IMG/VR virus record: IMGVR_UViG_3300009034_000119
Location: 1-37,620 of that record
Length of the DNA: 37,620 nt
Origin: a virus
Strand: one strand, 5' to 3'
The stretch's first letter is position 1, and the number at the start of each line of letters is the position of its first letter. Positions 1,165 to 6,150 of the stretch are shown piece after piece. A program made the translations under genes and the position numbers. The notes below the pieces were generated by a model. It did no database searches. It was not told the DNA's origin and saw nothing but the letters and a program-made list of their open reading frames with translations.

Positions 1165-2631
1165 TTATAGCCTCGTTATCCTTGGATCTGAGACTGGCTT
1201 GATATCAGCTAAAGCATAGATCACACTCTCTGCTTGATCTGGAGATCTGCCTAGCTTCTCTTTGATCTTATCTTTAGGAATAATGAAGAGCTGTCCTGCA
1301 GAATTTCTATCATACTTAATAGACATTAGCTGAGTTAGTAGCTCCCTGTCATTAGGAAGGCTGATAATATCTAACAGCTCTCTCAATCCCCAGTGGATCT
1401 CAGTCCTGACATTTTTGAATTTAATTGGATTCTTAGGCTTCCCAGCTCCATGGATCTCTAGTATCTTTATATACACTTTGAAAGAAGCTTCCGCAAGGCT
1501 TTCTCTAGCTTTTTTTGAAACATTCTTTAAGACCCATTTAGTGTAAAGAGCTTGCTTCTCTGATCTCTGCTCTTTGAGCCTATCTACTACTCCAGAGCCT
1601 AGCCCATCAGCATCTACTTTAATAGTGATCTTAAGGATTGCTTTCTTAGCTATTATTTCTATGCCAGCTTCTTTCCATTTAGGTAGGATCCTTTCTGCGC
1701 AGCACTTCCAGATCTCACCAGTAGTCTTCATGAGATCATGACCTTTAGCCTTGTTATAGAACTCTACTCTTGCTCCTTCCCTAAGAGTAATCACTGTCTC
1801 ATCTGAAGTATGTCTTTCAGATCTAGCTACATCTACTCCTATCTCAAGAGGTAGGGAAGCCTTTACTCTCCGCTTCATAGATGCCCTAATTGCAAGATAG
1901 AGATAGAGATTATCAGGCTCCCCTACAGCTTCCCAATCGCCTTCCATAAGTGCTTTATATGAGACTGGAGATAAGATCTTCTTCATGTTAGGAATGTAGT
2001 TAGGTGGTAAATTCTCTTTATTATCTTCTGGAAGAGAGGGGATAAAAGTATGATCTTCTAAATTCTTTTCTAAAAATCTCTCTTTGATCCAGCCTATGTT
2101 AGGGTTACATGAAAGAAGAAAAAAATACTTGATCCCCGGAAGATTCAATCTGAGTCTAGTAGATAACATGATGAACTGCTCTTCAGTGAATTGCTCTGCT
2201 TGATCAAGGGCTATCCATCCATATTCACCTGACATAAATTTATCCCAGTCGTCTTCTCTTTCTCCTAGCCCTCCATAGCGGATCCTAGATCCATTCTTGT
2301 AGTAGATATATTTTTTAGTTTCATTCCATCCTGCTATGGTCCGCTTATCTATGAACTTCTCTAGCTGGGGATAGACTGTATCAGTGAATGAAGGGAAAGT
2401 CCGTCTTAATAGAAGCCCAAAATTGCCAGGATAATCAAAACTAAGCATCTGCCCTTCATTGATCAATGCTGCAGTTTTCCCTCCCCCCATAGCTCCACCA
2501 AAGAGCTTATACATTTCTGGAGCTTCATGAAATTCTAACTGTTTTTTATTTCTCTCTGGATCATACTTGAGATCTATCTCTAAGATCTTAGTCTCAAGCT
2601 CAAAATCTTCAGTGATTCTTTTTTCCAGCAT
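1165..2631 (-). CDS. terL: Terminase large subunit (packaging ATPase and nuclease)
   Basis: A 488-aa DNA-packaging motor. The N-terminal ATPase carries a Walker A-type loop GGAMGGGKT (residues 45-53) and a Walker B-like strand GWIALDQAEQ (D143, with the following E146 as likely catalytic glutamate). The C-terminal RNase H-like nuclease starts near residue 263 (IGVDVARSE, D267) with a later acidic DADGLGSG strand. Length is normal for the family. The start overlaps the 3' end of the small-subunit gene by 23 nt, the usual terS-terL coupling. The protein cuts concatemeric DNA and pumps it through the portal. It is unusual that fibre genes, not the portal gene, come next. Confidence 0.97.
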   Translation of the reverse strand: MLEKRITEDFELETKILEIDLKYDPERNKKQLEFHEAPEMYKLFGGAMGGGKTAALINEGQMLSFDYPGNFGLLLRRTFPSFTDTVYPQLEKFIDKRTIAGWNETKKYIYYKNGSRIRYGGLGEREDDWDKFMSGEYGWIALDQAEQFTEEQFIMLSTRLRLNLPGIKYFFLLSCNPNIGWIKERFLEKNLEDHTFIPSLPEDNKENLPPNYIPNMKKILSPVSYKALMEGDWEAVGEPDNLYLYLAIRASMKRRVKASLPLEIGVDVARSERHTSDETVITLREGARVEFYNKAKGHDLMKTTGEIWKCCAERILPKWKEAGIEIIAKKAILKITIKVDADGLGSGVVDRLKEQRSEKQALYTKWVLKNVSKKARESLAEASFKVYIKILEIHGAGKPKNPIKFKNVRTEIHWGLRELLDIISLPNDRELLTQLMSIKYDRNSAGQLFIIPKDKIKEKLGRSPDQAESVIYALADIKPVSDPRITRL

Positions 2632-3136
2632 TTTTTTTCTTCTTCTTATCTTTAGGTCTAGGGATAGTAGACTTTATTAAAATCTTTTCAAGCCCAGGGA
2701 AGTCTAGCTCTTGCTTATCCTTCCAGCGTTTAGATCTCCTATTCTTAAGCCAAATAAAGCAAGCTGCTACATCAGGTGGGATGAACTTCTTTATTTTCTT
2801 AATAACTGTAGGGACAGCTTTAGGCTCTTCTTCTTTTTCCTTCTCTCCCTTCTTCTTAGCTGTCTTCTTTCTATCTTTCAATCTATACTCAGTGTGAGTC
2901 TCTTCATACTCATATCCTAAAGCTCTTTTGAGAAGCGCATTTTCTACTTTTACATCTACTGGACTTTTTCCCTTTTTTATAGCATCCGAAAAGTCCGAAT
3001 GATCTATCTGATATTGATAGTAAGTAGAGATAGATATCCCCAGCTTCTTAGCTATCTGCTTATCATTCAAACCTCTTCTAGCATAGTCTTGAGCTAAGAG
3101 AGGAAAATCTTTTTCTATATACTTTGGTTTAGCCAC
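2609..3136 (-). CDS. terS: Terminase small subunit
   Basis: A 175-aa protein starting with GTG. Residues 10-60 form a helix-turn-helix region (DYARRGLNDKQIAKKLGIS then TYYQY), typical of small terminase subunits that recognise the packaging site. Residues 60-80 (VENALLKRALGYEYEE) match the following helical segment of the family. The centre is very lysine/glutamate-rich (about residues 88-105) and the C-terminus is a lysine-rich tail. It directly precedes and overlaps terL. A GAGG sits about 12 nt upstream of the GTG, which is a loose spacing. Confidence 0.92.
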   Translation of the reverse strand: MAKPKYIEKDFPLLAQDYARRGLNDKQIAKKLGISISTYYQYQIDHSDFSDAIKKGKSPVDVKVENALLKRALGYEYEETHTEYRLKDRKKTAKKKGEKEKEEEPKAVPTVIKKIKKFIPPDVAACFIWLKNRRSKRWKDKQELDFPGLEKILIKSTIPRPKDKKKKKNAGKKNH

Positions 3137-3149
3137 TTTGCTTTAATCC

Positions 3150-3263
3150 TCACTTATGATAGAGTCTGATCACTATGAAGAGTGATTTTTCAGAGCCTTC
3201 TAAACCACCTGCAGAAAGTAGATTCAGAATGATCAACTGGATCTGCTCAATTTGTGGGCTCAT
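3150..3263 (-). CDS. Possible 37-aa ORF upstream of terS (competes with plus-strand ORF)
   Basis: This ORF of 37 codons plus stop has a good AGGAG 8 nt before its ATG and ends shortly before the terS start, so it could be a translated leader of the packaging operon. The predicted peptide (begins MSPQIEQIQLIILNLL) has no domain I recognise. It lies entirely antisense to the plus-strand ORF 3175-3354. At most one of the two is likely to be a functional protein gene. Confidence 0.33.
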   Translation of the reverse strand: MSPQIEQIQLIILNLLSAGGLEGSEKSLFIVIRLYHK

Positions 3264-3354
3264 AGTCTTAGCTCCTAAAAGTAAAAAGCCTCGCTTCTTC
3301 TCTAGCACTCCTCACATTCACCACTGCGAATTTAAGAAGAAGAGAGATCATTAA
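3175..3354 (+). CDS. Candidate plus-strand zinc-binding microprotein
   Basis: A 59-aa ORF on the opposite strand to every other gene. It encodes WICSICG (CxxC at residues 24-27) followed about 20 residues later by HIHHC (residues 48-51), a plausible four-ligand Zn site, and a basic tail KKKRDH. It ends with TAA 23 nt inside the 3' end of the convergent radical-SAM gene. There is no clear Shine-Dalgarno site and an in-frame stop lies just upstream, so the start is fixed at 3175 or the later ATG at 3229. The protein pattern looks real but the missing ribosome-binding site keeps confidence moderate. Confidence 0.45.
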   Translation: MKSDFSEPSKPPAESRFRMINWICSICGLIVLAPKSKKPRFFSSTPHIHHCEFKKKRDH

Positions 3355-4591
3355 ACCTCTCCTTTAACTTAGTGATATTTTCAGGATATTTCAAGTAGTC
3401 CCATTCTCTTTTCCTTACATAAGCTAACTTATCTAGCACTCTCCCTTCTCTTAAATAAAGCATTTTCTGAAAGTCTTTTAGATGCTGAAATTTCTTATTC
3501 ATGAAGTATTTCTCTAAGATTTCAGATCCTTCATTCCCTGCTCTATGAACTGCCATCCTTTCTACAAGCGAAGCCCGGGAGTCTATATAGCAAGAAGAGA
3601 GAACCTGCATTTTAGGGCTTTTATACATCATCCTTTCTTTCTCTAAGAAGAAGACTCTCCAGTTATGAGAAAAAACTGCAGCGCAATCTTCCATAGGAGT
3701 TAAAGGCTCTGGAGAGAAAGGAGTAGAATGAACTATGATAACAAATCTAGTAGATCCTTTAGCTCGATCAGCTTCAGCTACTGCTTCTTTAAACTCGTCT
3801 AAATAATGAGTGCTAGGCTCTTCCCATGGATAGCCACATATAGAGAAAATCTTAATGAAGATCTTCTTCTTGATATTTCTAGCTCTAATTTCTGAAAGCT
3901 TATCTACTATGTCTGAGTTCTTGATCATCTTATTTACTTTGAACCGCGAAGCTTCAGAGAAGCCATCTATAGCAGTTATGTAATGACCTGGCTCTTTGAT
4001 ATCCAGTGCTTTGATATCATCTTCTACTGAAGAGTCATAGATAGTAGAGTTATATTTCTTCACTGGAATAAGAAGCTTATGAGTCCACGAGTAAAAGCAG
4101 AATAAACATTTATTTCTACACCCTACATTTCTTTCACCATCTACTAAATTCTGAGGCTGTCTATAAGTGTATTTTTTCTCTAGTCCAGGATCTTGATCAG
4201 TGTCTAAAACATTATCTGGGCGATCACCTTCTAAGATCTTATTTATCTGCCCTTCAGCTCTTCCAAAAACAGCTAGATCAAAGTAAGGAAGATAGCTCCT
4301 TACATTGAGTAAGCCTTGTCCCCCTACTATAATTTTAGTCCCATTTCTAGGGATCCCTTTCACATTCTTGATCAGATTCATAGCATCCCTATAGCTATGA
4401 AGAGGCACTAAAGCAAAGTCAACTTCTGGAAGCTGTAGAGGAGAAATGAATCTTACTTTATGCTTCTTTTTATCCAGCTCTTTAACTACTGCATTGATCC
4501 CTAAATATTTAAAGCTATCAAAATAGACATTTTTTCTAGTAGCTCTGCATTTCACTAATTTAGAGAAAACTAAGATCCCTATTCTAGCCAT
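3332..4591 (-). CDS. Radical-SAM enzyme with B12-binding-like N-terminus
   Basis: A 419-aa protein. Residues 1-125 look like the Rossmann-type cobalamin-binding domain found in many B12-dependent radical-SAM enzymes (IIVGGQGLLNVRSY near 87-100, then DLAVFGRAEG). Residues 155-330 carry the radical-SAM core with the CX3CX2C motif GCRNKCLFC (C158, C162, C165), which would hold a 4Fe-4S cluster and cleave S-adenosylmethionine. The substrate is unknown. It overlaps the ParB-domain gene by 13 nt, so the two are probably co-translated and act together. It is too long and differently built to be QueE. A role in modifying DNA or a host macromolecule is inference only. Confidence 0.85.
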   Translation of the reverse strand: MARIGILVFSKLVKCRATRKNVYFDSFKYLGINAVVKELDKKKHKVRFISPLQLPEVDFALVPLHSYRDAMNLIKNVKGIPRNGTKIIVGGQGLLNVRSYLPYFDLAVFGRAEGQINKILEGDRPDNVLDTDQDPGLEKKYTYRQPQNLVDGERNVGCRNKCLFCFYSWTHKLLIPVKKYNSTIYDSSVEDDIKALDIKEPGHYITAIDGFSEASRFKVNKMIKNSDIVDKLSEIRARNIKKKIFIKIFSICGYPWEEPSTHYLDEFKEAVAEADRAKGSTRFVIIVHSTPFSPEPLTPMEDCAAVFSHNWRVFFLEKERMMYKSPKMQVLSSCYIDSRASLVERMAVHRAGNEGSEILEKYFMNKKFQHLKDFQKMLYLREGRVLDKLAYVRKREWDYLKYPENITKLKERFNDLSSS

Positions 4592-5073
4592 TTAAAGCCA
4601 CACTTAGGGCATATTCTCTCTAGCTCTTTTTTCTCTCCGGAGACTTCATCACTCGGAGCAAACCCCCCTAAAAGTTCTTTCAATGAGACAGGATCTTGAA
4701 GATCTATCTTGTAAGCCTCTAGTTCTATCTCATCTTTTAAAGCAAAGATCTCTTCTGCTATTTTTTCTTCAATCCAGATCCCAGAATTATCATTATCAGA
4801 AAGCGCATACTTCCACTTTTCAGCTTCAGTCTTTGGATGGACTAATGATAGATCTATTTTTTTATGCTTCAGATCTTTAAGCACAAAGTAGCGAGTCCTA
4901 CCACCTAAGATAAAATATCTTCCATTCTCAGGATAAGCTACAGCTGGCTTATAGACTCCTAAATCTTCTACTTGAGCTTTAGTCCTTTCATAGTCTTTAG
5001 TCTTAGTAGCTCTAGTCTGTAAATTCTTATTCCAGACTTCTACCAGGGAAATATCAACACTTACGATCTCCAT
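4579..5073 (-). CDS. ParB/Srx-fold domain protein with C-terminal zinc knuckle
   Basis: A 164-aa protein. Residues 1-100 resemble the ParB N-terminal/sulfiredoxin fold: VSVDISLVEVW at the start and the GGRTRYFVLKDL loop-helix (about 57-68), equivalent to the nucleotide-binding G-x-R-R region. The C-terminus has CPKCGFKW, a half zinc ribbon. No ParA partner or DNA-binding HTH is seen, so this is not a partition ParB; phage proteins of this type often accompany DNA-modifying enzymes or act as CTP/ATP-dependent switches. It is translationally overlapped with the radical-SAM gene. The start has only a distant GAGG and follows a terminator-like hairpin. Confidence 0.8.
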   Translation of the reverse strand: MEIVSVDISLVEVWNKNLQTRATKTKDYERTKAQVEDLGVYKPAVAYPENGRYFILGGRTRYFVLKDLKHKKIDLSLVHPKTEAEKWKYALSDNDNSGIWIEEKIAEEIFALKDEIELEAYKIDLQDPVSLKELLGGFAPSDEVSGEKKELERICPKCGFKWLE

Positions 5074-5119
5074 CAGAAAAAAAGCCTCGTGAGAGCTGTT
5101 CTAAGCGAAGATCTCGAGG
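5070..5119 (-). terminator. Terminator-like hairpin in front of the ParB-domain gene
   Basis: On the minus strand CCTCG (5119-5115) can pair with CGAGG (5089-5085), with extra AGA/TCT pairing inside. One base later comes a run of seven T (5083-5077). This is the shape of a Rho-independent terminator separating lysis genes from the ParB/radical-SAM pair. It also covers the only candidate ribosome-binding site of the ParB gene, so it could be an attenuator. Stem length is modest. Confidence 0.45.
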
Positions 5120-5157
5120 TGGTGAGTGCTATCTTATTAGACTCTCCCCTCTGGGAG

Positions 5158-5493
5158 CTATCCATCAGCATTTTTAGCGTCTATATGCTTTATGATATCT
5201 TTTTGATTATCTTCCATCATCTTGAAGATCTTCCCATGATCCTGTCTATTGTTTTCATGGACTGTTTTCAGTTGATCTCCTATCATCTCAATAGCCTTAG
5301 AATTAGCAGCTATATCTCCTTCATGTTTAAAGCATAGAGTCTTCTTGCTGATAGTATTCAAGTCCTTTGGGATGGTTGGAGCCTGAGTGTTCTTTTTCTG
5401 AAATTTAACTAAGAAAGCAAATACTATGATCAAGATCACTATAGCAAGACAGCCAGCTGGTCCGAGAATATGCCAAGGGATCTGTTGTCCCAT
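5158..5493 (-). CDS. Membrane protein with coiled-coil tail, lysis-region
   Basis: A 111-aa protein with one strong transmembrane segment at residues 10-32 (AGCLAIVILIIVFAFLV) and a long charged helical C-terminus. The short N-terminus is likely periplasmic or external and the tail cytoplasmic, or the reverse. Its start overlaps the stop of the upstream small membrane gene (TAATG). Position directly after the amidase and a two-TM protein makes a holin or antiholin/spanin role plausible, but the C-terminal AIEMIGDQLKTVHENN region also resembles phage haemolysin-like accessory proteins. Function not proven. Confidence 0.7.
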   Translation of the reverse strand: MGQQIPWHILGPAGCLAIVILIIVFAFLVKFQKKNTQAPTIPKDLNTISKKTLCFKHEGDIAANSKAIEMIGDQLKTVHENNRQDHGKIFKMMEDNQKDIIKHIDAKNADG

Positions 5494-5696
5494 TAGCCCT
5501 TCTTCCCAAAGATATCAGTTAAAGTTAGATATCCACCAGTGAAGCCTAGCACTCCTAAAGTGAGCATAGAGAATTTAAACCAATCTCCAGAAACATCACT
5601 TGAGAATTTTGCCAGTGCATAAGATAGCACTATAAGCACTAAAGAGGTGATCCCCAGCTTTAGCCTCCTGTTCCTTTCCTTGTTATTGACAGCCAT
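5493..5696 (-). CDS. Small two-TM membrane protein, holin candidate
   Basis: A protein of about 67 aa with a basic N-terminus (NNKERNRRLK) followed by two hydrophobic segments (LGITSLVLIVLSYALA and FSMLTLGVLGFTGGYLTL). That topology, size and position just after the endolysin gene fit a holin that forms membrane holes at lysis time. I chose the ATG at 5696 because GGAGG lies 7 nt upstream. The ATG at 5699 and TTG at 5702 are possible alternatives. Confidence 0.7.
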   Translation of the reverse strand: MAVNNKERNRRLKLGITSLVLIVLSYALAKFSSDVSGDWFKFSMLTLGVLGFTGGYLTLTDIFGKKG

Positions 5697-5715
5697 CATC
5701 AAGCCTCCTTTTGAT

Positions 5716-6150
5716 TTATTTAATGAATCCTTTTAAGCGATCCATATCAAATAAATTCCCCGGGCAAGTCTTCACCGCGAACTGGTGATGAGGGAAAATA
5801 TCAGACAAGGTAAGATTGGAATATTTAAGCCAAAGAGATATCAATTTAGCTCCAGCTATGAGCTGTGAATCTGTGGGAAGGATAGCATCAAAATTTCCTA
5901 TAAAGCAGATCCCTAGAGAGTGCTGATTTTGTCCTTTAGTATGCGCTCCTGCTATATCCCACATTCTGCCTATTAAGATTTCATAACAAAGCTCATTTCC
6001 ACTGAAGACTAATTCTACTCCAGCATGATAACCTATATCTTGCCAGTGTAAAGTCTGAGTGTGATATTTTCTGATAGCTCCCCATGATACAGAGCCTGAA
6101 TCTTTAGTAAGGGAATGATGAACAATTATTTTTGTAGGTTTGAATACCAT
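5716..6150 (-). CDS. Endolysin: N-acetylmuramoyl-L-alanine amidase, T7-lysozyme type
   Basis: A 144-aa Zn amidase that cuts the bond between muramic acid and L-alanine in peptidoglycan. The amidase_2 signature is complete: IIVHHS (H11/H12), IGYHAG (Y41), GAHTKGQNQHSLGICFIG (residues 68-85), and HHQFAVKTCPG (H121/H122, K127, C129). Zn ligands correspond to T7 lysozyme H17, H122 and C130. It has no signal peptide or wall-binding domain, so it needs a holin. Two small membrane genes follow at once. The start has no clear Shine-Dalgarno site and abuts an inverted repeat. Confidence 0.95.
   Translation of the reverse strand: MVFKPTKIIVHHSLTKDSGSVSWGAIRKYHTQTLHWQDIGYHAGVELVFSGNELCYEILIGRMWDIAGAHTKGQNQHSLGICFIGNFDAILPTDSQLIAGAKLISLWLKYSNLTLSDIFPHHQFAVKTCPGNLFDMDRLKGFIK

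Follow-up and report, generated by a model that had tools for sequence, protein, structure and literature searches.

What does a ParB-fold protein do beside a radical-SAM enzyme in a phage genome, and on what does that enzyme act? Both questions are raised by two overlapping genes that lie immediately before the terminase genes of a viral contig. Known phage DNA hypermodifications mostly rely on polar reactions at 5-hydroxymethyl or 5-carboxymethyl pyrimidines. Here, we report a computational analysis of this gene pair and its relatives, starting from IMG/VR record IMGVR_UViG_3300009034_000119, which was analyzed whole (37,620 nucleotides, a complete 37.6-kb record) and is called the window below.

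The genes of interest are on the minus strand of the window, in the order parB, rSAM, terS, terL. parB (positions 4579 to 5073) encodes a ParB/Srx-fold protein of 164 amino acids (aa), a proposed NTP-binding adaptor, and rSAM (3332 to 4591) encodes a B12-type radical-SAM enzyme of 419 aa, the proposed DNA modifier. The end of parB and the start of rSAM share 13 nt (4579 to 4591, minus strand), an overlap seen in relatives too and probably reflecting translational coupling; these coordinates, lengths and overlap are as given in a preliminary description made from the sequence. Downstream are the terminase small subunit gene terS, the fixed neighbor of the cassette (2609 to 3136, minus strand; phrog_309, E = 1.9e-39), and the large subunit gene terL (1165 to 2631, minus strand; phrog_979, E = 2.3e-32; Terminase_3, E = 1.8e-8). 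The window thus has the layout that we use as a working definition of a ParB-modifier-terminase cassette, namely a CPKCG-type parB that overlaps a modifier gene, with terS/terL following directly. No base-modification enzyme (hmdU-type hypermodification pathway considered) was found among those window proteins scanned with Pfam and PHROG profiles, and no C5-methyltransferase or CmoA was found among the window open reading frames (ORFs) at E values up to 10 with profiles built from the loci collected here. A separate 59-aa ORF on the plus strand (3175 to 3354), opposite to its neighbors and overlapping the 3′ end of rSAM, has a CxxC...HxHHC zinc-finger pattern and is kept as a protein (53 to 71% identity) in contigs L036, L003 and L002, even after rSAM loss.

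The ParB-fold assignment of the 164-aa protein is borne out by a match to phrog_620 (E = 1.4e-13) and by an AlphaFold2 model (pLDDT 80.6) that matches ParB CTPase domains, including ParB with a CTP analogue (Z 12.9); phrog_498 is matched at E = 4e-11. In comparison with canonical ParB of chromosomes and plasmids, which has helix-turn-helix and dimerization domains and a ParA partner, the structural matches span residues 1 to 128 (KorB up to 128) of the 164. In the GxxR NTP-binding motif (P-motif/Box II, G58 to R61; 4891 to 4902, minus strand), G58 and R61 do not vary among 21 aligned sequences; ParB-fold proteins need this arginine to bind NTPs (PMC12704722). The C-terminal CPKCG (4597 to 4611, minus strand) is invariant in the 21 as well, an invariance that is partly ascertainment because CPKCGFKW served as a search pattern; the same tail was also found upstream of rSAM genes recovered by rSAM-only searches. 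The tail had been called a zinc knuckle: its one CxxC (CPKCGFKW) is present, but this makes only half a zinc site.

The radical-SAM enzyme carries the [4Fe-4S] motif CRNKCLFC (residues 158 to 165; 4097 to 4120, minus strand), and this CX3CX2C arrangement (C158-x3-C162-x2-C165), already read from the window sequence, is kept in 17/18 aligned family members. One family member (L058, 851 to 2101) has glycine at the second motif position (CX3GX2C) and may be an inactive protein or else a sequencing error. The window enzyme scored 15.4 bits against Pfam Radical_SAM PF04055, below the curated cutoff of 29.5 bits, which is a threshold and not a biological feature, the sequence being too divergent for the profile. 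PHROG profiles gave no match for it, and a PDB sequence search gave nothing informative. Because no curated sequence profile was reached, the assignment rests on the motif, the family alignment and the structure. B12-binding radical-SAM profile TIGR03960 gave weak, below-cutoff matches in 14/18 members and TIGR04013 weak matches in 9/18; TIGR04014 (MgmA equivalog) gave no match to the window protein and weak ones in 2/18 members (best E, 4.6e-8). PF02310 was matched at sequence level in only 4 of the 18, and the family alignment showed no additional invariant cysteines that could ligate a second cluster. Every one of the 18 members is basic (mean charge, +13.1), whereas 23 other large proteins encoded at these loci average +0.8. 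Such a charge is consistent with a nucleic-acid substrate without proving it.

The enzyme was modeled with AlphaFold2 from 18 sequences (pLDDT 86.3, pTM 0.86), and the top VIA-align match was MgmA (Z 17.9, 304 residues, 3.6 Å), which methylates a glutamine of methyl-CoM reductase, a protein (PMC11796369). The next matches were CysS (Z 14.1), AprD4 (14.0), MiaB (12.7), RimO (12.3), OxsB (12.2), TsrM (11.4) and TokK (11.2); a family missing from the match list is not thereby excluded as a relative. The model aligns over 266 to 305 residues to MgmA, CysS, MiaB and TsrM, with a partial TIM barrel around the motif. Residues 1 to 124 alone (4220 to 4591, minus strand), a Rossmann domain, match the cobalamin-binding proteins 4jgi (Z 9.1) and 1y80 (Z 8.7), so that the B12-like N terminus of the preliminary description holds at the level of the fold; residues 340 to 419 are helical, and the whole model shows no evident TRAM-like domain. 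A structure-level relative was present in BFVD (A0A8S5QA32, Siphoviridae sp. ctdcr45; E = 3.6e-29, TM 0.76). The predicted architecture is B12-type radical-SAM, a radical-SAM barrel preceded by a domain of the cobalamin-binding fold, and from this model we infer cobalamin binding and methyl transfer. MiaB and RimO modify tRNA and a ribosomal protein, and AprD4, a relative by the same fold, is not a methylase. With the nearest fold matches acting on protein (MgmA), tRNA and a ribosomal protein (MiaB/RimO), the fold leaves the substrate unfixed.

IMG/VR relatives were first reached through ParB searches, and several had an rSAM gene adjoining. An alignment of five enzymes then gave 34 loci, and two alignments from other clades found a further 33 and 14, overlapping in part (L093, L104 and L114 belonged to the second alignment query). 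After exclusion of contig ends lacking upstream DNA, duplicates, a group linked to type IV CRISPR genes, and the very weak L184 and L185, 45 contigs were judged. A ParB gene lies upstream of rSAM in 39 of these 45 contigs, which are not all independent; it is adjacent in 36 and separated by a C5-methyltransferase gene in 3, which are near-identical. Nearly all 39 ParB genes overlap rSAM and end in CPKCG (those of L165, L169, L171, L173 and L175 were read from translations). Four more contigs have, in place of ParB, a two-CxxC zinc finger with endonuclease VII/HNH-type PHROG matches fused to the enzyme N terminus (L053, 4800 to 6209; L054, 4806 to 6224; L056, 4806 to 6215; and L059, 290 to 1696), and no ParB was seen upstream of them, L059 having only 290 nt of upstream DNA. 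The remaining two (L067 and L189) have neither an upstream ParB nor a fused zinc finger. The pair is conserved together across diverse phages; a lack of such conservation, which the preliminary description would have counted against its reading, was not what the survey showed. The terminase is usually downstream (12/12 TerL candidates tested were confirmed with PHROGs, and homology shows many more), and because these terminases differ in family (phrog_2, phrog_9, phrog_15 and phrog_38), the cassette moves between phages.

Within the sensitivity of the searches, no rSAM family member was found by tblastn of four different members against 50,697 phage records or by two pattern scans of 84,980 prokaryote species genomes; in the collections searched, the family is confined to viral contigs. 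A single-sequence pattern search of IMG/VR with rSAM also returned no relatives, a limit of the pattern search, because a relative of 77% identity existed and alignments gave about 45 contigs.

Classifying the gene that follows each CPKCG-tailed ParB gene gave 71 distinct loci, window included. The partner was a C5-cytosine methyltransferase (C5-methyltransferase) or CmoX/CmoA in 43, rSAM in 16, both a C5-methyltransferase and rSAM in 1 (L018) and another ParB-like gene in 1; the other 10 had none of these, several being followed directly by terS. By the residue at the HhaI Asn304 position, the C5-methyltransferases divide into GN (8), GR (11) and GM (24). A CmoA-like gene is present in 11/11 GR loci, which agrees with the published CmoX signature, Arg350 (PMC12783734); the same ParB type therefore accompanies an experimentally shown kind of DNA-modification system. 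The ParB tree, built on a short alignment and with several long branches, implies at least nine partner switches between rSAM and C5-methyltransferase. In L018 to L020, ParB, C5-methyltransferase and rSAM are consecutive, and there rSAM may act on 5-methylcytosine produced by the C5-methyltransferase; since neither a C5-methyltransferase nor CmoA was found in the window, the substrate there would be an unmodified residue or a host-modified one. The commonest ParB partner was a C5-methyltransferase with methionine at the HhaI Asn304 position (GMSV), a DGSPPCS active-site motif and no CmoA (L097, L099, L105 to L109, L111, L115, L120, L124 and others). This methyltransferase is of neither the ordinary nor the CmoX type and may use an unusual methyl donor or make an unusual product.

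Compared with relative L003, dN/dS was about 0.14 for rSAM, about 0.09 for ParB and 0.10 for TerL. This purifying selection shows that parB and rSAM are not chance ORFs, an explanation that was ruled out by dN/dS together with conservation. Codon 276 of the L003 rSAM gene (1463 to 2722) is a single in-frame TGA; the sequences before and after it are both under purifying selection, and the stop arose either by recent mutation or through faulty assembly. In a close relative (L002/L037; ParB 87%, TerL 82%), rSAM is gone, only its very start and about its last 30 codons being recognizable, and L041 (TerL 62%) has no cassette. Between the rSAM remnants is a 262-aa ParB-like gene (L002, 6681 to 7469; L037, 6332 to 7120). 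Such turnover is the behavior of accessory, arms-race genes.

A related group of B12-type radical-SAM enzymes was seen beside type IV CRISPR effector genes (L071, L072, L075 to L078 and L080 to L082, at around 4,100 to 6,100 in each). PADLOC identified Csf1/Cas8, Csf2/Cas7 and Csf3/Cas5 in L075, L076 and L080 (E down to 2e-45), similar effector gene sets were judged by eye in L071, L072, L077, L078, L081 and L082, and on a tree the group is separate from the ParB-linked clade (support, 99). Type IV-B systems normally carry a CysH-like gene, and the review that describes them (PMC8175902) makes no mention of radical-SAM partners; the enzyme perhaps sits where IV-B carries the CysH-like gene.

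The closest known arrangement is the CmoX system, for which ParB is a known neighbor and 5-carboxymethylcytosine DNA modification has been shown experimentally (PMC12783734). CmoX/CmoA/CmoY loci share with the window the same kind of ParB-CPKCG, the same overlap with the modifier and the same slot before terS/terL (L031, L033, L034, L116 and L134). The window modifier, however, is a radical-SAM enzyme without a C5-methyltransferase (Arg at the HhaI Asn304 position) or CmoA, and membership of the window in the CmoX system was rejected because neither is among its ORFs. Cassettes of ParB with C5-methyltransferase, and phrog_498 fusions (PMC12704722), likewise share position, ParB type and overlap, whereas polar methyl transfer would be replaced by radical chemistry in the window; L018 to L020 carry both. 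A 2025 survey of the ParB fold describes phage ParB-methyltransferase fusions and does not mention radical-SAM partners (PMC12704722). The enzyme resembles the class B enzymes MgmA, CysS, TokK, TsrM and OxsB in its Rossmann cobalamin-type domain, radical-SAM barrel and CX3CX2C but differs from them in identity (11 to 15% in structural alignments), in occurring on viral contigs only (collections searched) and in its ParB partner. Methylthiotransferases of the MiaB/RimO type resemble the enzyme in overall two-domain layout (Z about 12); unlike them, the rSAM family lacks the invariant cysteines of a second cluster and has a cobalamin-type N-terminal domain. DndB/DndC phosphorothioate systems also place a ParB-superfamily protein beside a [4Fe-4S] DNA-modification enzyme, but DndC belongs to the PP-loop proteins and is no relative of radical-SAM enzymes (PMC10853773), and no Dnd genes were seen in the window. 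No description of a ParB and radical-SAM pair in phages was found in the open full-text literature searched. The kind of system, a ParB-modifier cassette, is known; its chemistry is possibly new.

We consider DNA the probable substrate of rSAM, and C-methylation, a weaker inference, its candidate chemistry. We put at an even chance that these genes form a modular cassette for phage DNA modification, in which the B12-type radical enzyme is the modifier and ParB serves as adaptor or regulator. This reading is favored by the 39/45 rSAM contigs with ParB and 4 more with a fused zinc finger; by the pairing of the same ParB-CPKCG gene with C5-methyltransferase, CmoX plus CmoA, or rSAM; by at least nine partner switches and the three-gene cassettes of L018 to L020; by the structural matches (MgmA, CysS, OxsB, TsrM and TokK); by the basic charge of 18/18 members and purifying selection; and by the related group beside type IV CRISPR genes and ParB being a neighbor of CmoX. 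It is weakened by MgmA acting on protein, AprD4 not being a methylase and the B12 profiles staying below cutoff; by the dispensability of rSAM (replaced in L002, cassette absent in L041, stop in L003); and by CX3GX2C in L058 and some ten loci in which ParB has neither enzyme as a partner. The DNA-modification role in the preliminary description is therefore partly supported, through conservation of the pair and the rSAM enzyme holding the slot of C5-methyltransferases or CmoX/CmoA; its suggestion of action during packaging need not follow, adjacency to terS being typical of methyltransferase cassettes too.

Were the enzyme instead to modify a phage or host protein (e.g., the terminase or a capsid component), with ParB recruiting or regulating it, the nearest structure being a protein methylase (MgmA, Z 17.9; PMC11796369) and the terminase being the usual neighbor would be accounted for; we consider this unlikely, as the downstream terminases of different families (phrog_2, _9, _15 and _38) offer no obvious shared target and the exchange with DNA C5-methyltransferases would be left unexplained. 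A MiaB-like action on RNA (host or phage tRNA) would suit the structural kinship to MiaB (Z 12.7) and RimO (Z 12.3) and the basic charge of the family. The cobalamin-binding-like N-terminal domain, the model without an evident TRAM-like domain (residues 340 to 419 helical) and cotranslation with a ParB-fold protein common to DNA methyltransferases make it quite improbable.

Several phage hypermodifications start at the nucleotide level, and the cassette might make or alter a small molecule, such as a nucleotide precursor for the polymerase or a signal, or block a defense signal. ParB-fold proteins do bind NTPs (PMC12704722), yet the cassette has no recurring partner from nucleotide metabolism and the enzymes that replace rSAM act on polymer DNA, so we rate this possibility as low. 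Most doubtful is that the site before terS is a hot spot for unrelated accessory genes and that the pairing is without functional significance: another gene does occupy the slot in L002, with remnants of the rSAM gene ends, and ParB does occur without either enzyme, but 39/45 contigs pair rSAM with ParB, mostly in overlapping frames, and 4 of the 6 unpaired contigs fuse a zinc finger to the enzyme.

In a DNA-modification cassette, ParB, with its NTP-binding site and CPKCG tail, would bring, gate or stabilize the cotranslated enzyme on phage DNA. The [4Fe-4S] cluster of rSAM would cleave SAM, and the 5′-deoxyadenosyl radical would abstract hydrogen from a normally unreactive base or sugar carbon of DNA. 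That carbon would then receive a methyl group or some other modification, most likely by C-methylation as in MgmA-like enzymes, and the mark would most likely shield phage DNA from host nucleases. More tentatively, at a little under even confidence, we propose that these cobalamin-type radical-SAM enzymes form a family specific to viruses, perform radical C-H chemistry on DNA, leave an undescribed base or sugar mark and are guided or gated by exchangeable DNA-binding partners (ParB-CPKCG, a fused zinc finger and, in the related group, type IV CRISPR complexes).

The CmoX study noted ParB genes in 1660 contigs and raised the question of the role of the ParB-domain protein beside phage DNA-modification enzymes (PMC12783734). 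The partner exchange described here bears on that question and predicts one common ParB adaptor for several modifiers. If the modifier is indeed a B12-type radical-SAM enzyme, phages would be able to modify unactivated carbons, a chemistry undescribed for phage DNA in the literature searched, and would have a new route to evade restriction and CRISPR.
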